This document shows, piece after piece, positions 10,221-17,297 of a stretch of DNA of 47,603 nt. Source of the stretch: Actinomyces culturomici (GTDB taxonomy: Bacteria; Actinomycetota; Actinomycetes; Actinomycetales; Actinomycetaceae); assembly GCF_900499005.1 (NCBI RefSeq), contig NZ_LS991316.1, forward strand, positions 1,407,218 to 1,454,820, in the 5' to 3' direction. The position numbers and the translations under genes are program-made. The first letter of the stretch is position 1. The number at the start of each line of letters is the position of its first letter. Below the pieces are notes generated by a model. The model was not told the origin of the DNA and made no database searches. It saw only the letters and a program-made list of their open reading frames with translations.

Positions 10221-11561
10221 ATGCCATCTTCAGTCTCCACGTCGTTGCTGACGGACATGTACGAGCTCACGATGATCGACGCGGCGCTCAAGGCGGGTAC
10301 CGCCTTCCGCCACTCGGTCTTCGAGGTCTTCGGCCGCCGCTTCCCGGCGACCCGCCGCTTCGGCGTCGTCGCGGGCACGGGCCGCATCCTCGAGGCGCTC
10401 GAGCGCTTCGAGTTCGAACCCGAGCAGATCGACTACCTCCACCGCGAGGGGATCGTCTCCGACGAGACCCTCGACTACCTCAAGGACTTCCGCTTCTCCG
10501 GCGACATCTCCGGCTACGCCGAGGGCGAGTGCTACTTCCCCGGCTCCCCGCTCCTCACCGTCGAGGGCACCTTCGCCGAGTGCACGATCCTCGAGACGCT
10601 GCTCCTCTCGATCCTCAACCACGACTGCGCGATCGCCTCGGCGGCCTCGCGCATGACGATCGCCGCCCACGGACGCCCCTGCATGGACATGGGCGCGCGC
10701 CGCGCCCACGAGCGCGCCGCCGTGTCGGCCGCCCGCGCCGCGATCATCGGCGGCTTCGGCGGCACCTCGGACCTCGAGGCGGGCAAGCGCTACGGGATCC
10801 GCGCGATCGGCACGGCCGCCCACTCCTTCACGCTCCTTCACGATTCGGAGCGGGAGGCCTTCGACGCGCAGATCGCGCTCCTCGGCCCGGGCACGACCCT
10901 TCTCGTCGACACCTACGACATCCCCCAGGGCGTCGAGAACGCGGTCGCCGCGGCCCGCGCCGCCGGCGGCGAGCTCGGGGCCGTCCGCATCGACTCGGGC
11001 GACCTCGTCGCCCAGGCCTTCAAGGTCCGCGGCCAGCTCGACGCGCTCGGCGCGACGACGACGAAGATCACGGTGACGAACGACCTCGACGAGTACGCGA
11101 TCGCCGCGCTCGGCGCCGCTCCCATCGATTCCTACGGCGTCGGCACGAAGCTCGTCACGGGCTCGGGCGTCCCGACGGCGGCCCTCGTCTACAAGATCGT
11201 CGCCCGCGAGGGCGAGAACGGGGAGATGATCCCCGTCGCGAAGAAGTCGGAGTCGAAGTCGACGGTCGGCGGTCGCAAGTACGCGGGCCGCGTCCTCGAC
11301 GAGGAGGGCTACGCGTCGGAGGAGGTCCTCGTCGTCGCCGACACCGCCGAGGCCGCCTACGCGGAGCTCGACCGCCTCGGCGCCCGCCGCCTCCAGATCC
11401 CGCTCATCGTCGGCGGCGAGATCCACTCCGAACTGTGGCGCGACGGCGCCCTCGAGAAGGCGCAGGCCCACCACGTCCGCACCCGCAACGAGCTCCCCTA
11501 CCAGGCGTGGAGGCTCTCCGAGGGCGAGGCCGCGATCCCGACGCGCTACGTGCGCGTCTGA
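10221..11561 (+). CDS. pncB: Nicotinate phosphoribosyltransferase
   Basis: 446 aa. It converts nicotinate, PRPP and ATP to nicotinate mononucleotide in the NAD salvage pathway. Family landmarks include the N-terminal SLLTDMYELTMIDAALKAG, the EGTFAECTILETLLLSILNHDCAIASAA strand-helix, GARRAHERAAVSAARAAIIGGFGGTSD with the presumed phosphoenzyme His in the HSFTLLHDSE region, the PRPP-binding VRIDSGDL, and VGTKLVTGSGVP. Length matches the actinobacterial PncB type. Start MPSSVSTSLLTDMY at 10221 is supported by the -10 box just upstream. A strong hairpin terminator follows 20 bp after the stop. Confidence 0.95.
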   Translation: MPSSVSTSLLTDMYELTMIDAALKAGTAFRHSVFEVFGRRFPATRRFGVVAGTGRILEALERFEFEPEQIDYLHREGIVSDETLDYLKDFRFSGDISGYAEGECYFPGSPLLTVEGTFAECTILETLLLSILNHDCAIASAASRMTIAAHGRPCMDMGARRAHERAAVSAARAAIIGGFGGTSDLEAGKRYGIRAIGTAAHSFTLLHDSEREAFDAQIALLGPGTTLLVDTYDIPQGVENAVAAARAAGGELGAVRIDSGDLVAQAFKVRGQLDALGATTTKITVTNDLDEYAIAALGAAPIDSYGVGTKLVTGSGVPTAALVYKIVAREGENGEMIPVAKKSESKSTVGGRKYAGRVLDEEGYASEEVLVVADTAEAAYAELDRLGARRLQIPLIVGGEIHSELWRDGALEKAQAHHVRTRNELPYQAWRLSEGEAAIPTRYVRV

Positions 11562-11710: not shown

Positions 11711-13522
11711 TCAGGAGCGGCCGACGAACCACTGGCGCAGGAGCGCGATCCTCGCCTCGATCTGCTCGGTCGTCGCGAGGGCGATCTCCGGGCCACCGCA
11801 GCGCTGGCGGAGCTGGGAGTGGATCATCGCGTGCGTGTCGCCGGAGCGGCGCGACCACGAGGAGACGAGGTGCGAGAGCTCCTTGCGCTTCGCGGCGCGC
11901 AACCGGTGATCGGAGATCCCGGCGTTCGCCTCCCGTCGGCGGGCGGCGTCGGAGGACTTGCGCTGGGCGGCCATCTGCTCGGCCTGACGTGCCCGCAGGA
12001 GCGTCGTCACCTGGTCGGCGTCGAGGAGGCCCGGGATCCCGAGGTACTCCTGCTCCTCGGCGGACCCGACTTCGGCGCCCTGGCCCCACGCGGCGCCGTC
12101 GAAGAGGACCGAGTCGAACTCGGCGTCCGCGCCGAGGACCTCGAACTGGCTGAGGAGGTCCGACGAGGCGGCGTCCTCCCGGTTCGCGGCCGCGACCATC
12201 GCGTCCTCGGGGTTCCACATCGCGTCCTCGCCCTCGGGCTTCGGACGGTCGAGGGCGTGGTCGCGCTCGACCTCCATCTGCCCGGCGAGGTCGAGGAGCT
12301 GGACGACCGAGGGGATGAAGACGGTCGCGGTCTCGCCGCGACGCCGGGCCCGGACGAAGCGCCCGACGGCCTGGGCGAAGAAGAGCGAGGTCGAGGTGTT
12401 CGTCGCGTAGACGCCGACCGAGAGGCGCGGGACGTCGACGCCCTCGGACACCATGCGGACGGCCACCATCCACTTGTCGTCGGACTCGCGGAAGGCGTCG
12501 ATCCGGTCGGAGGCGTCCGCGTCGTCGGAGAGGACGAGCGTCGCCGACCTCCCGGTGATCTCGCGGAGGTGGCGCGCGTAGGCGCGCGCCTGCGTCTGAT
12601 CGGAGGCGATGACGAGTCCGCCGGCGTCGGGGATCTGGCGGCGGACCTCCTCGAGGCGCAGGTCGGCGGCGCGCAGCACCGCGGGGATCCACTCGCCCTT
12701 GGGGTCGAGCGCCGTGCGCCACGCCTGCTTCATGAGGTCCTTCGTCAGCGGCTCGCCGAGCCGCGCGGACATCTCGTCGCCGGCGCGCGTGCGCCACGAC
12801 ATCTGCCCGGAGTAGGACATGAAGAGGACGGGCCGGACGACGCTGTCGCGCAGCGCGTCCCCGTAGCCGTACGTGTAGTCGGCCTTCGAGCGGCGGATCC
12901 CGTCGGCGTCCTCCTCGTAGCGGACGAAGGGGATCGGGGAGGTGTCCGAGCGGAAGGGGGTGCCGGTGAGGGCGAGGCGCCGTGTCGCGTCGGCGAAGGC
13001 CTCGCGCACGCCGTCGCCCCACGAGAGGGCGTCGCCCGCGTGGTGGATCTCGTCGAGGATGACGAGGGTCGGGTGGGCGCGGGGGCGCGCCGAGTGGACG
13101 GGCGGGTTTGCCGCGACCTGCGCGTAGGTGACGGCGACGCCGTCGTAGTGGGAGCCGGCACGCCCCTGCGAGTTGGAGAACGCCGGGTCGATGTGGATGC
13201 CGACCCGGGCGGCCGCGTCCGCCCACTGGCCCTTGAGATGCTCGGTCGGGCAGACGACGGTGACCTTTTCGACGACCCCGGCGCCCATGAGCTCGACGGC
13301 GATCCGCAGCGCGAAGGTCGTCTTGCCGGCGCCCGGTGTGGCGACGGCGAGGAAATCCCGAGGAGCCGCCGCGAGGTAGCGCTCCAGGGCGGCCGCCTGC
13401 CACGCGCGCAGGCTCGACGCCGTGCCCTTGCGGGCGCGGTCGGGGAAGGCGGGGGGAAGGCTCTTCGCTGCGAAGTGGGAGGCGCGGGACGGGCTGTGGT
13501 GTCGATCCTGCGCGGGCGTCAC
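11711..13522 (-). CDS. DEAD/DEAH-box (superfamily 2) helicase of the DUF3039-linked type
   Basis: 603 aa. The N-terminal RecA-like domain has Walker A ATPGAGKTTFALRIA, DEAH-like box ILDEIHHAGDAL, and motif III LALTGTPFRSD. The C-terminal helicase domain shows VAVRMVSEGVDVPRLSVGVYAT and QAVGRFVRARR (motif VI). The last ~200 residues are charged and helical without a recognised domain. GTG start at 13522 overlaps the stop of the DUF3039 gene (GTGA), which fixes the start; the frame continues upstream only as overlap. This helicase next to a DUF3039 gene is a conserved actinobacterial pair of unknown function; the substrate is probably DNA by similarity to UvrB/XPB-like SF2 helicases, an inference. 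Confidence 0.88.
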   Translation of the reverse strand: MTPAQDRHHSPSRASHFAAKSLPPAFPDRARKGTASSLRAWQAAALERYLAAAPRDFLAVATPGAGKTTFALRIAVELMGAGVVEKVTVVCPTEHLKGQWADAAARVGIHIDPAFSNSQGRAGSHYDGVAVTYAQVAANPPVHSARPRAHPTLVILDEIHHAGDALSWGDGVREAFADATRRLALTGTPFRSDTSPIPFVRYEEDADGIRRSKADYTYGYGDALRDSVVRPVLFMSYSGQMSWRTRAGDEMSARLGEPLTKDLMKQAWRTALDPKGEWIPAVLRAADLRLEEVRRQIPDAGGLVIASDQTQARAYARHLREITGRSATLVLSDDADASDRIDAFRESDDKWMVAVRMVSEGVDVPRLSVGVYATNTSTSLFFAQAVGRFVRARRRGETATVFIPSVVQLLDLAGQMEVERDHALDRPKPEGEDAMWNPEDAMVAAANREDAASSDLLSQFEVLGADAEFDSVLFDGAAWGQGAEVGSAEEQEYLGIPGLLDADQVTTLLRARQAEQMAAQRKSSDAARRREANAGISDHRLRAAKRKELSHLVSSWSRRSGDTHAMIHSQLRQRCGGPEIALATTEQIEARIALLRQWFVGRS

Positions 13523-13860
13523 TTGCCGGTGCCCCCCGAGCCGTCGGAGAAGGGCCAGTTGCGGCCGTTCTTGCCCATCGAGTCGCGCAGCTCCTTGCAC
13601 GTCGGGCACACCGGGTACTTCGAGGCGTCGCGCGAGGGGATCCACACCTTGCCGCAGAGGGCGACGACCGGCTGGCCGGTCATCATCGAGGAGTCGGCCT
13701 TGTCGCGCCGCACGAAGTGGGCGAAGCGGTCGCCGTCGCCCGGGGACTTCTCCTGCTCGACCTCGGTCCGCTCGAGGAGTCCGGTCGACGTCTGGGTCGA
13801 CGGTCCGCCCGGGCCGGTCGGGGCTCCGGGTCCTGTCGGTTCATCGAGGGCATCGCGCAT
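13519..13860 (-). CDS. DUF3039 family protein
   Basis: 113 aa. The C-terminal half is the conserved DUF3039 core: GDGDRFAHFVRRDKADSSMM, then PVVALCGKVWIPSRDASKYPVCPTCKEL, with three cysteines (ALCGK and CPTC) suggesting a metal-binding knuckle. The N-terminal ~40 residues are Pro/Gly/Thr-rich and disordered. The start at 13860 (MRDALDEPTG) is supported by a minus-strand TACAAT -10 box six bases upstream, again leaderless. Its stop overlaps the helicase start. Family function is unknown. Confidence 0.85.
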   Translation of the reverse strand: MRDALDEPTGPGAPTGPGGPSTQTSTGLLERTEVEQEKSPGDGDRFAHFVRRDKADSSMMTGQPVVALCGKVWIPSRDASKYPVCPTCKELRDSMGKNGRNWPFSDGSGGTGK

Positions 13861-13985: not shown

Positions 13986-14750
13986 TCAGCGGGCGGAGGC
14001 CGCTTGGACCTCGAGGTAGAAGTCGAGGAGCTCGAGGCGCGACGCGGCGGCGCGGTCGAGGAGGACGAGGACGTCGGGGTGCATCTGGAGGATCGACGCC
14101 GGGCAGCGGGCCGACACTCCCCCCTCGATCATCGCGGCGACGGCCTCGGCCTTGCCCTCGCCCGTCGCGACGAGGACGCAGGAGCGCGCCTCCATGATCG
14201 TGCCGAGCCCCTGCGTGACGCAGTGGGTGGGGACGGCGTCGAGGTCGCCCCCGAAGAAGCGGGAGTTGTCGCGTCGGGTCCGCTCGGTGAGGACGCCGAC
14301 GTGCGTGCGGCTCACGAGGGAGCCGCCCGGCTCGTTGAAGCCGATATGCCCGTCGGACCCGATCCCGAGGACCTGAACGTCGACGCCCCCGGCCTCGCGG
14401 ATCGTCCGATCGTAGTCGGCCGCGCCCTCGTCGAGGTCCGTCCGCCAGCCGTCGGGTCCGTGAGCGGCGCCCTCGGGCATGTCGACGAGGTGACGGTGAA
14501 TGAAGTTCGCGTACCCCTCCTCGTGGCCGCGGTCGAGCCCGACGTATTCGTCGAGGTTGAAGGAGCGGGCCCGCTCGAAGGAGATCCGGCCCTGCTCGTT
14601 CCTGCGAACGAGCTCCGCGTAGAGCGGAAGCGGCGAGGACCCCGTCGCGAGCCCGATGACGAAGTCCGGCTTGGACCGGTAGACCTCCTCGATCCGGTCG
14701 GCCGCCGCGGTGGCGATCGCGAGCTCGTCCTCGAGCACTGCGATTCTCAT
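13986..14750 (-). CDS. nagB: Glucosamine-6-phosphate deaminase
   Basis: 254 aa. It converts glucosamine-6-phosphate to fructose-6-phosphate and ammonia, the committed step of amino-sugar catabolism. Diagnostic segments are GLATGSSPLPLY (substrate loop), FNLDEYVGL (catalytic Asp), GIGSDGHIGFNEPG (catalytic His/Glu) and SRTHVGVL, followed by VTQGLGTIMEAR. Start at 14750 is preceded by a strong GAGGAGG. Ten bases separate it from the upstream chimeric gene, so the two form an operon, probably repressed by the divergent ROK regulator whose usual ligands are GlcNAc-6-P or related sugars. Confidence 0.94.
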   Translation of the reverse strand: MRIAVLEDELAIATAAADRIEEVYRSKPDFVIGLATGSSPLPLYAELVRRNEQGRISFERARSFNLDEYVGLDRGHEEGYANFIHRHLVDMPEGAAHGPDGWRTDLDEGAADYDRTIREAGGVDVQVLGIGSDGHIGFNEPGGSLVSRTHVGVLTERTRRDNSRFFGGDLDAVPTHCVTQGLGTIMEARSCVLVATGEGKAEAVAAMIEGGVSARCPASILQMHPDVLVLLDRAAASRLELLDFYLEVQAASAR

Positions 14751-14760
14751 GAATTCCTCC

Positions 14761-15963
14761 TCATTCCTCGCGCCGCGCGTCCCTGAGCGCGGCGATGATC
14801 CTGTCGATCTCCGCGCGGCTCGTCCCTCCATCCGGTCCGGGCGCGCGCATGTGGACCTCCTTCGCTCCACTCGCCTCGACGATATCGGAGACGTTGGCGG
14901 ACCGGAGGCCCCCCGAGGCGAGGATCCCGATCCGCTCCCCCGCGGCGTCGACGAGGGCGGCGAGGCCCGCGGGATCCGCGGTCGACGGGCTCCCGCCCGT
15001 CGTGAGGACCCGGTCGTAGCCGAGCCGCACGAGGGCCTCGAGGCCCTCGAATTGATCGGGGACGAGGTCGAATCCCCTGTGGAAGGTGAGGGGCGCGTTC
15101 CCGGCGGCCGCGCGGAGGCGGGCCGCCGCATCCTCGTCGATCGTGGAATCCGAGCGCAGCGCGCCGACGACGAACCCGAGGCGGACCGGGGCGCCGGAGC
15201 CGAGGGAGCGCAGGGCCGCGACGTCCGCGGCGATCCGATCGACCTCGGACGGGGTGTGGACGAAGTCGCCGGGGATGTCGAGGCGGTCGTTGACGAGGAT
15301 CCCGGGCTGGAGCTCGGTCACCATCTCGAGGAGCTCCTCCGAGCCCCAGTCGTCCTTGCCCTTGCCCGTCCAGCCGTCGACCTCCCAGGGGTAGGAGAAG
15401 TCGAAGAAGATGTAGTCGATCGTCCCGTAGCGGGTGAGGAGCTCACGGACCTGGCCCTTGAGGTACTTCCGGTACTCGACCATCGTCCTTTCGGGGTGGG
15501 CGTCCCGCGCGTCGGCGTCGTCGCGCCTCGGGTGGTGGAAGTCGTAGGGGAAATCGGGGTGGTGCCAGTCGAGGAGCGAATGGTAGAGGCCGACCTTGAG
15601 GCCGGCGGCCCGGAGGGCCTCGACCCATTCGGCGACGAAGTCGCGGCCCTGGTGGCGCATCGACGTGTAGTCGGTGAGGTCGGAGTCCCAGAGGCAGAAA
15701 CCGTCGTGATGCTTCGTCGTGAGGACCGCGTATCCCATGCCCGCGCTCTTCGCCAGCTCGGCGATCCGCGTCGCGTCGAAGAGATCGGGCTCGAAGAACT
15801 CGGCGTACTTCTCGTAGTCCTCGACCGTCCTGCGCTCGCGGGTCATCACCCATTCATGCCGGGCGGCGACCGAGTAGAGGCCGAAGTGAACGAAGAGTCC
15901 GAACCTGTCGTGGTCGAACCACGCTTGCGCGGCTGCCTGCTCCGCGGATGTCGACCGAGTCAT
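14761..15963 (-). CDS. Chimeric gene: GH29 alpha-L-fucosidase N-terminal part fused to CutC C-terminal part
   Basis: 400 aa in one uninterrupted frame. Residues 1-231 resemble the N-terminal part of GH29 alpha-L-fucosidases: WFDHDRFGLFVHFGLYS, EWV, YAVLTTKHHDGFCLWDS, GLYHSLLDWHHPDFPYD, and IDYIFFDFSYP with Asp188 as candidate nucleophile, up to QPGILVNDRLDIP. From GDFV (232-235) the sequence switches to CutC: PSEVDRIAADVAALRSLG, FVVGALRSDSTID, PLTFHRGFDLV (292-301), LGYDRVLTTGG, ILASGGLRSANVSDIV, GAKEVHM. The CutC part starts where Escherichia coli CutC has GGDF, about residue 66, so the beta strands before it are missing, as is the GH29 acid/base region and C-terminal domain. Both parents are TIM barrels. 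No signal peptide. Operon with nagB; divergent from ROK. Whether it folds or acts is unknown; a deletion between adjacent genes, or a misassembly, could have made it. Confidence 0.75.
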   Translation of the reverse strand: MTRSTSAEQAAAQAWFDHDRFGLFVHFGLYSVAARHEWVMTRERRTVEDYEKYAEFFEPDLFDATRIAELAKSAGMGYAVLTTKHHDGFCLWDSDLTDYTSMRHQGRDFVAEWVEALRAAGLKVGLYHSLLDWHHPDFPYDFHHPRRDDADARDAHPERTMVEYRKYLKGQVRELLTRYGTIDYIFFDFSYPWEVDGWTGKGKDDWGSEELLEMVTELQPGILVNDRLDIPGDFVHTPSEVDRIAADVAALRSLGSGAPVRLGFVVGALRSDSTIDEDAAARLRAAAGNAPLTFHRGFDLVPDQFEGLEALVRLGYDRVLTTGGSPSTADPAGLAALVDAAGERIGILASGGLRSANVSDIVEASGAKEVHMRAPGPDGGTSRAEIDRIIAALRDARREE

Positions 15964-15974
15964 ACACCCCTTCT

Positions 15975-15988
15975 TTCGATCTATCGAA
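15975..15988. promoter_or_regulatory. Palindrome upstream of the chimeric gene, candidate ROK operator
   Basis: TTCGAT-CT-ATCGAA is a perfect interrupted palindrome 12 bp upstream of the start of the fucosidase/CutC-nagB operon. A second imperfect inverted repeat (ATTGGAC...GTCCTAT) follows at about 15990-16010. Either could bind the divergently encoded ROK repressor. Confidence 0.45.
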
Positions 15989-16109
15989 CTATTGGACTAC
16001 CTTTGTCCTATCGATGTGACTGAGCGTACACGATTCTTCATCGGTGACAAGGGGCCTAAAACACGCACATTGATAACAAGATGGTCGCACCGTCGAAGAA
16101 AATAGCGTC

Positions 16110-16115
16110 TAGAAT
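16110..16115 (+). promoter_or_regulatory. Candidate -10 element of the ROK regulator gene
   Basis: TAGAAT lies 40 bp before the ATG at 16155 in an AT-rich stretch. A convincing -35 hexamer at 16-18 bp spacing is not visible. The gene also has an AGGAG ribosome binding site at 16145-16149. Confidence 0.4.
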
Positions 16116-16154
16116 CGAAATAAGTCGGTGCACTTCTCACGGCCAGGAGCAGCC

Positions 16155-17297
16155 ATGGAGGACCCCCTCACCCCCCAGCGGACCCTCGAGATCCATCGCA
16201 GGATCCTCGACCTCGTTCGATCTGGCCGAGCGTCGACCCGAAACGACCTCGTCGAGCTCCTCCCGGCCTCGCCCTCGACGGTCTCCCTGCGCACTCGCGA
16301 GCTCATCGACTCGGGCGAGCTCGTCGACTCCGGCGCGGCCCCCTCGACCGGCGGGCGCCCCTCCCACGTCCTGCGGCCCGCGACCGCCGAGACCCTCATC
16401 CTCGGCGCCGACCTCGGCACGCAGCACGCGAGGATCGGCATCGCGAAGGGCGACGGCACCGTCCTCGCCGTCCGCCAGATCGTCATCGACGCGACGCAGA
16501 GCCCGCAGGACGTCCTCGATCTCGTCTTCTCCGCATTCGACAGCCTCCTCAAGGCGCAGGGCGGCGCCTGCTCCCCCGCCGCCATCTGCATCGGTCTCCC
16601 TGCCCCCATCGATCACGCCCACGGGTGGGTCGACACGGGATCGCGCCTGCGCGGATGGCACCACTTCCCCGTCGCCGATGAAGTGCGGCGCCGCTACGGC
16701 TCGCGGGTCGCCATCGAGAACGACGCCGACCTCATGGCGATCGGCGAGCACCGCGCTCATCCCGGGATCGCCCACTCGATCACCGTCAAGGCGGGCACGT
16801 CGATCGGCGTCGGCGTCATCATCGACTCGCGCGTCCACCGCGGGGCGACCGGCGCGGCCGGGGACATCTCCCATGTCCGCATGCCCGCGTTCGGGAACCT
16901 CACCTGCGCCTGCGGGAAGACCGGATGCCTCGACACGGTCGTCTCCGGCCACGCCCTCGCGAATCAGTGGCAGGCGATCGCGGGAGAGAGCCGCACCTTC
17001 GCCGACCTTCTCGCGGCGGCGGCTAATGGCGACGCGCGGGCCATCGAGCTCCTCCGTACCGCGGGCTCGCGGCTCGGCGAGGCCCTGAGCGCGATCGCGG
17101 GCCTCCTCAACCCGGACGCGATCTTCATCGGCGGGCTCCTCTCGACCTCGGAGGACTTCCTCGCCGCGATCCGCGCCGTCCTCTACGCGAGCTGCCACCC
17201 GCTCATCACGCGCCGACTCCTCATCGAGGCGACGTCGACCGGGCACGACGCCGGCCTGCGGGGCGCCCTCGCCGTCGCGAAGTCGCTGCTCGACTGA
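16155..17297 (+). CDS. ROK-family transcriptional regulator (NagC/XylR type)
   Basis: 380 aa. The N-terminal winged helix-turn-helix spans roughly residues 10-70 (LEIHRRILDLVRSGRASTRNDLVELLPASPSTVSLRTREL). The ROK sugar-kinase-like domain follows, with ILGADLGTQHARIGIAKGDG (phosphate loop), IENDADLMAIGEH, GTSIGVGVIIDSRVHRG, and the zinc site GDISHVRMPAFGNLTCACGKTGCLD. Start at 16155 is chosen for its AGGAG five bases upstream; a GTG at 16128 would add nine residues. It is divergent from the chimeric gene-nagB operon, so GlcNAc-6-P or a related sugar phosphate is a likely effector (inference). Confidence 0.88.
   Translation: MEDPLTPQRTLEIHRRILDLVRSGRASTRNDLVELLPASPSTVSLRTRELIDSGELVDSGAAPSTGGRPSHVLRPATAETLILGADLGTQHARIGIAKGDGTVLAVRQIVIDATQSPQDVLDLVFSAFDSLLKAQGGACSPAAICIGLPAPIDHAHGWVDTGSRLRGWHHFPVADEVRRRYGSRVAIENDADLMAIGEHRAHPGIAHSITVKAGTSIGVGVIIDSRVHRGATGAAGDISHVRMPAFGNLTCACGKTGCLDTVVSGHALANQWQAIAGESRTFADLLAAAANGDARAIELLRTAGSRLGEALSAIAGLLNPDAIFIGGLLSTSEDFLAAIRAVLYASCHPLITRRLLIEATSTGHDAGLRGALAVAKSLLD

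Follow-up and report, generated by a model that had tools for sequence, protein, structure and literature searches.

Comparison with related genomes indicates that a 400-aa open reading frame in the window (the whole 47,603-nt stretch of Actinomyces culturomici DNA that was analysed, to which all positions refer) is probably the scar of one short-homology deletion that removed about 6.4-6.5 kb from an accessory fucoside/amino-sugar operon. The frame is single and unbroken, running on the minus strand, which the earlier note left unstated, from an ATG at 15963 to a TGA ending at 14761, and it joins the front of a GH29 alpha-L-fucosidase to the rear of CutC. The earlier note had proposed such an in-frame chimera, and this is borne out: Pfam and the PDB sequences give the same split.

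14761..15963, minus strand: chimeric 400-aa ORF, GH29 alpha-L-fucosidase N-terminal 231 residues followed by a CutC C-terminal part (Pfam, PDB sequences)
15271..15963, minus strand: GH29-derived half, residues 1-231, including Asp188 of the FFDF motif (Pfam, alignment)
14764..15270, minus strand: CutC-derived part, from residue 232 (Pfam)

The two Pfam matches are above their cut-offs and far beyond chance: PF01120 (GH29) covers residues 5-229 (profile positions 19-249 of 345, E 5.1e-55, 187.7 bits vs a cut-off of 25.2) and PF03932 (CutC) covers residues 232-373 (profile positions 62-199 of 202, E 4e-29, 102 bits vs a cut-off of 23.3). Among PDB sequences searched with phmmer, the alpha-L-fucosidase 6gn6 is the nearest solved sequence to the GH29 half (residues 13-229, E 6.3e-70) and the human CutC homolog 3iwp matches residues 231-376 (E 1e-20). 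Set beside the GH29 alpha-L-fucosidases (PF01120, 6gn6), the first 231 residues of the chimera align throughout and profile positions 250-345 are missing, so that the catalytic domain is incomplete; set beside the CutC family (PF03932; 3iwp, 1twd, 2bdq), positions 1-61, close to one third of the profile, are missing, so that the CutC barrel is incomplete as well. The claim that both parents are partial thus stands, and the intact proteins of a relative (G034) span positions 22-343 of the GH29 profile and 2-199 of the CutC profile. The chimera scores 65.3 bits with the NCBIfam CutC equivalog model, below its cut-off of 311; this is a weak test because the intact CutC of G034 (128.6 bits) also fails. 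Asp188, which we take to be the GH29 catalytic nucleophile, is invariant across 35 aligned GH29 rows (window included; 20 columns are invariant in all), and the GH29 acid/base residue presumably falls within the absent part. The CutC part keeps the FHRxFD, LTTGG, SGGLR and EVHMR stretches.

The arrangement from which the chimera would derive is still visible in relatives, including the sister species. Six genus genomes (G008, G029, G034, G027, G028 and G033), which are all those where a close GH29 shares its contig with a cutC, carry an intact seven-gene operon in the order: GH29, ABC binding protein, two permeases, M81/MlrC-like, ROK kinase and cutC (Pfam names taken from G034). Throughout these six the GH29 (71-84% identity to the window) and cutC are full-length and lie on the same strand in the same order, with match starts about 7 kb apart. 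The operon of G008, G029 and G034 is placed between the flanks that the window also has, i.e. a divergent ROK regulator on one side and a hypothetical gene, a helicase and NAPRT on the other; that of G027, G028 and G033 lies away from the hypothetical-helicase-NAPRT block. As the earlier note had it, nagB follows the chimera and a ROK-family regulator diverges from it.

10221..11561, plus strand: nicotinate phosphoribosyltransferase (NAPRT), retained right flank, species-tree marker (tree, identity)
11711..13645, minus strand: DEAD/ResIII helicase, retained right flank (comparison with relatives)
13519..13860, minus strand: small, conserved hypothetical gene with which the retained right flank begins (comparison with relatives)
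13986..14750, minus strand: nagB, glucosamine-6-phosphate deaminase, the sole nagB match in the genome at 1e-10 (profile/sequence match)
15964..16127, no strand assigned: divergent promoter region, with TAGGACAAAG (TGGAACAAAG in G034) upstream of GH29 in the window, G008, G029 and G034
16128..17297, plus strand: ROK-family (NagC-like) regulator, divergent, forming the operon's retained left flank (comparison with relatives)

At window positions 16000-16080, between the ROK regulator and the chimera, the same four genomes have retained TAGGACAAAG (varied in G034) and a GTTAT word in front of GH29 despite poor overall similarity; these words are possibly an operator or promoter element.

When the window is aligned to the operon, only GH29 residues 1-239 and CutC from residue 57 on find a match, and the five middle genes are unmatched. 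The spacing from junction to junction in the intact operon amounts to 6459 nt in G008, 6418 nt in G029 and 6435 nt in G034. The window's own genome (2.56 Mb in 19 contigs, with a completeness rating of 100%) was searched for the missing parts: a 6531-nt segment of G008 matched at best at 68% over 211 nt (best 40 of 509 candidates), the rear half of the G034 GH29 hit nothing but a distant GH29 (35% over residues 17-114, C19:9556-9855), the whole G034 CutC matched the chimera alone, from CutC residue 62 on, and the G034 M81 protein gave no match, an empty result that alone shows little. Since the lost genes were not found elsewhere in this genome, about 6.4 kb of DNA appears to have been lost, with no sign of relocation. 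The earlier note had suggested a deletion between neighbouring fucosidase and cutC genes; the deletion holds, but the direct join of two neighbours is rejected, as each of the six operon carriers has five whole genes separating GH29 from cutC.

The same searches bear on the idea that the assembly falsely joined two real, separate genes at a short repeat. The genome is indeed a 19-contig assembly, but it is rated complete and the missing genes and gene halves were not found elsewhere in it, a 10-nt word would be too short to mislead an assembler, and the junction lies inside a 1.6-Mb contig; we regard an artefact as very unlikely.

The flanks tie the window to G008, with identities of 92% for NAPRT, 95% over 104 residues for the hypothetical gene and 85% for the GH29 half. 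A NAPRT tree of 30 rows (quick method; G007, G013, G014, G021 and G030 excluded) places the window as sister to G008 with an SH-aLRT of 98.

The junction falls on a short motif that both parents share.

15265..15274, minus strand: junction block CCCCGGCGAC, last base of I230 through D233 (alignment with relatives)

The six GH29 relatives read NDRLDIP(G/A/S)DLVTPEQ at this place and the CutC relatives RPRPGDFVHT or near it, and the window reads NDRLDIPGDFVHTPSE; the alignment thus agrees with the earlier statement that the junction lies on a GD motif common to both parents. The motif (P)GD stands in the same codon phase in the two genes (DIP-GD-LV vs RP-GD-FV), and the join is therefore in frame without further change. 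After GAC/GAT the six GH29 relatives carry a Leu codon, CTC or CTG; CutC and the window carry TTC for Phe at this point. The 10-mer CCCCGGCGAC occurs in the GH29 of three of the six relatives (G029, G027, G033) but not in any of the 13 cutC genes, and the 9-nt word CCCGGCGAC occurs in both GH29 and cutC of G029 alone; the other relatives share less at the junction sites (6 nt in G027), mostly owing to third-base differences. The block CCCCGGCGAC is thus likely the shared stretch where the parents met, and a homology of some 9-10 nt in the lost parents can be inferred from one relative and the amino-acid motif. That a single relative shows the exact word in both genes counts slightly against the short-homology deletion. 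The exact word that the earlier note had put forward, GGCGACTTCGTC at 15259-15270, is not shared in the relatives and was dropped.

The fusion was found in this genome alone. Apart from itself, the chimera as query recovered from its own genome only a distant GH29 at C19:10186-10458 (43% over residues 48-134), next to which lies a further weak piece. Matches at an E-value of 1e-5 or better were present in 33 of the 35 genus genomes and matches at 1e-75 or better in 36 of 396 sampled genomes of the order (own genome included in both), and in both sets the window alone spans the junction; with the threshold of 1e-75 and at most the best four candidates per genome in the order sample, a distant fusion could be missed there. 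The search of related genomes that had been proposed thus gave no counterpart in the 34 other genus genomes or among the order matches, and a conserved fusion family is rejected within these two samples. Among 80 further loci, long matches to the chimera were obtained in L109 (residues 14-349) and L087 (residues 13-330); a tblastn search with the G012 CutC gave no match in loci L033-L112, and CutC queries found no relatives in the viral contigs scanned. Titles and abstract beginnings in the literature on CutC in sugar operons, fucosidase-CutC fusions, TIM-barrel chimeras, GH29 with nagB operons, short-repeat in-frame fusions and homology-facilitated illegitimate recombination did not describe a GH29/CutC fusion.

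The ATG of nagB lies 10 nt after the stop of the chimera, with GGAGGA between them. Of the 34 genomes that have both nagB and NAPRT (own included), 27 have the two no more than 5 kb apart, so that the nagB of the window is in its customary place. No nagB lies between cutC and the hypothetical gene in G008, G029 and G034, which counts against a simple deletion, since this would need several parallel losses of nagB. These three genomes have nagB within about 3 kb of a murB-like gene (murB/nan names were given by eye), and the stretch before the murB-like gene in the window's own genome holds no nagB. At L185 10396-12228 (G000 C19) two transposase-like frames, recognised by eye, precede the murB-like gene, with one ambiguous base at 12177.

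An import would avoid these losses with one transfer. Foreign DNA with cutC, nagB and the hypothetical gene in the order found in G012 would have replaced the rear of the operon, entering by homologous recombination near the hypothetical gene or helicase and joining GH29 at its other end by short homology. In homology-facilitated illegitimate recombination one end is homologous and the other is joined by short homology, and recipient DNA is lost; for the window it is a rival explanation only. Five genomes (G012, G020, G026, G017 and G001) carry M81-ROK kinase-cutC-nagB-hypothetical-helicase-NAPRT, with neighbours as in the window, and the CutC part and nagB of the window both branch near the base of a larger clade, with flanks that group with G008. 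The CutC part is 61-67% identical to the cutC of the G012 type and 51-58% to that of G008, G029 and G034. However, when G008 is included in the CutC tree (row G013 44% filled) the CutC part falls beside it (83/76, long branch). An AU p of 0.085 leaves one clade of the CutC part with G008, G029 and G034 doubtful, which counts against simple deletion. In trees without G008 (left out along with G028, G016, G013, G023, G005, G004 and G022) neither origin is rejected: the AU p is 0.14 for descent with G029/G034 and 0.25 for grouping with the G012 type. Likewise, for nagB none of the following groupings is rejected: with the G012 type (AU 0.18), with G008/G003/G010 (0.09) or with these and G029/G034 (0.33); a clade of the nagB genes of G008, G003, G010, G029 and G034 is not rejected either (0.34). 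A position of the window nagB (long branch, of length 0.34) as sister to that of G008 is rejected (AU p 0.00018), which again counts against simple deletion. In GC3 the CutC part (0.92) and nagB (0.94) resemble the flanks (0.92-0.97), and no donor was found; both points count against an import. The trees leave vertical descent and import undecided; we put simple deletion first and import, which we hold to be unlikely, second.

The operon cutC of G008 (L113 4577-5059) has a very long branch (1.31), though the NAPRT and hypothetical gene beside it share 92-95% identity with those of the window; it would be either fast evolving or replaced. The C-terminal end of the window nagB is unlike the EVWEKEHL-type end of neighbours such as G012.

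According to the simple deletion that we favour, the ancestor would have had nagB directly after cutC, as in many genus members, and slippage or end joining on the shared word of about 9-10 nt would have removed the intervening DNA. The GH29 start, its promoter and the ROK control would now lead a two-gene unit, chimera-nagB, in which ribosomes would read the chimera to its stop 10 nt before nagB and nagB would be spared polarity.

That the two parts are in frame is less telling than it may seem. The exact 10-mers common to GH29 and cutC (overlapping words counted separately) are in the same codon phase in eight of nine cases in G008, 24 of 26 in G029 and six of seven in G027; G034 had none. 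When 22 window genes (mean GC3 0.90) are compared, the shared words of at least 10 nt are in one phase in 2869 of 3809 cases (75%), and this share is 78% after codon shuffling vs 34% after base shuffling, so that the phase bias reflects codon composition, not homology. Among 71 loci of diverse bacteria the in-phase share of words of at least 9 nt rises with GC3 (Spearman 0.66): it is 51-54% where GC3 is below 0.5 and reaches 75% where GC3 is 0.9 or higher. The genes of both surveys are ORF-based guesses; one locus with a single gene (L117) gave no data and another (L115) had no words at k=12. With three quarters of the shared 10-nt words in one phase, an in-frame outcome is no great coincidence, and because codon-phased words make in-frame fusion likely it is no sign of selection for the fusion protein. 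The bias points to a general explanation, open to testing, of why long chimeric frames could be numerous in GC-rich genomes, a point that may be worth more than the ORF itself. A bolder version, in which high-GC bacteria make in-frame fusions as a rule through GC3-phased words, short-homology deletions inside operons yield long open chimeras in about three quarters rather than one third of cases, and the chimera is a fresh translated product, perhaps with a residual or new sugar-binding role, seems to us improbable.

The structure prediction that had been proposed for the 400-aa product gave a divided answer. AlphaFold (35 rows, the other 34 covering the GH29 half only) returned a mean pLDDT of 74.1 and a pTM of 0.63; the block means are confident for residues 61-230 of the GH29 half (88-98) and low for residues 231-400 (34-68), where the alignment had no CutC rows, and the low values may only reflect these missing rows. 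Core strands are predicted at residues 22-25, 78-84, 123-129, 184-188 and 223-225. From the model and the sequence, the join would unite about five GH29 core strands with about five CutC strands at non-equivalent positions, and not a complementary 4+4. The chimera is most likely without fucosidase and without CutC activity, the protein is likely unstable, and the only effect of the frame is likely to carry ribosomes to nagB.

In its GH29 half the chimera shows no sign of decay. When 229 codons were polarised with G029/G034, one residue change was found in the window only and 12 in G008 only (nucleotide changes: N3/S9 in the window, N24/S20 in G008). The corresponding window-only and G008-only residue changes are 2 and 1 for the hypothetical gene, 14 and 24 for the helicase, 9 and 5 for NAPRT and 12 and 10 for the ROK regulator. 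The CutC part, which aligns poorly, has 6 and 18 (N19/S11 in the window, N41/S8 in G008), i.e. many nonsynonymous changes on both sides, and it breaks one of the 34 residues that are invariant in its 11 aligned relatives. A recent deletion and constraint both fit the lack of decay, and the data do not separate them.

The open frame, the well-preserved GH29 half and the single invariant residue broken in the CutC part are what a working chimeric barrel, kept by selection for a new or residual activity, would lead one to expect. We nevertheless consider such a barrel highly improbable: much of the barrel is missing from both GH29 and CutC, which would meet as about 5+5 strands, no counterpart was found in the 34 other genus genomes or the order sample, and the lack of decay is accounted for just as well by a recent deletion; the low-confidence model of the CutC part is no real test of the fold. 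With the in-frame outcome likely in any case, the suggestion of a natural barrel recombinant was not upheld in a functional sense.

Laboratory TIM-barrel chimeras such as CheY/HisF have been made on purpose, and stable ones are reported in the excerpted text of PMC8250049. Like these, the chimera of the window joins pieces of different alpha/beta proteins in one chain; unlike them, it would have arisen by deletion and would join non-equivalent points. It is a clean natural example of a deletion that fuses two unrelated operon genes in frame, and a warning that an intact frame and two good domain matches do not prove a functional fusion protein.

As for the pathway itself, excerpts of PMC6109692 describe the GH29 enzymes AlfB and AlfC of Lactobacillus casei in pathways acting on fucosyl-GlcNAc disaccharides. 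By analogy, a fucosyl-GlcNAc role is plausible for the operon in its intact form, together with the kinase and nagB, the substrate being a guess; unlike the pathway described in those excerpts, the operon has an ABC importer, and in the window the pathway would be destroyed. In G012 (L153 3937-7848), and likewise in L154, L155, L156 and L165, M81/MlrC-like, ROK kinase, cutC and nagB genes form a compact cluster that adjoins the hypothetical-helicase-NAPRT block, and the grouping of cutC with nagB and the ROK kinase suggests that CutC may work in amino-sugar metabolism.
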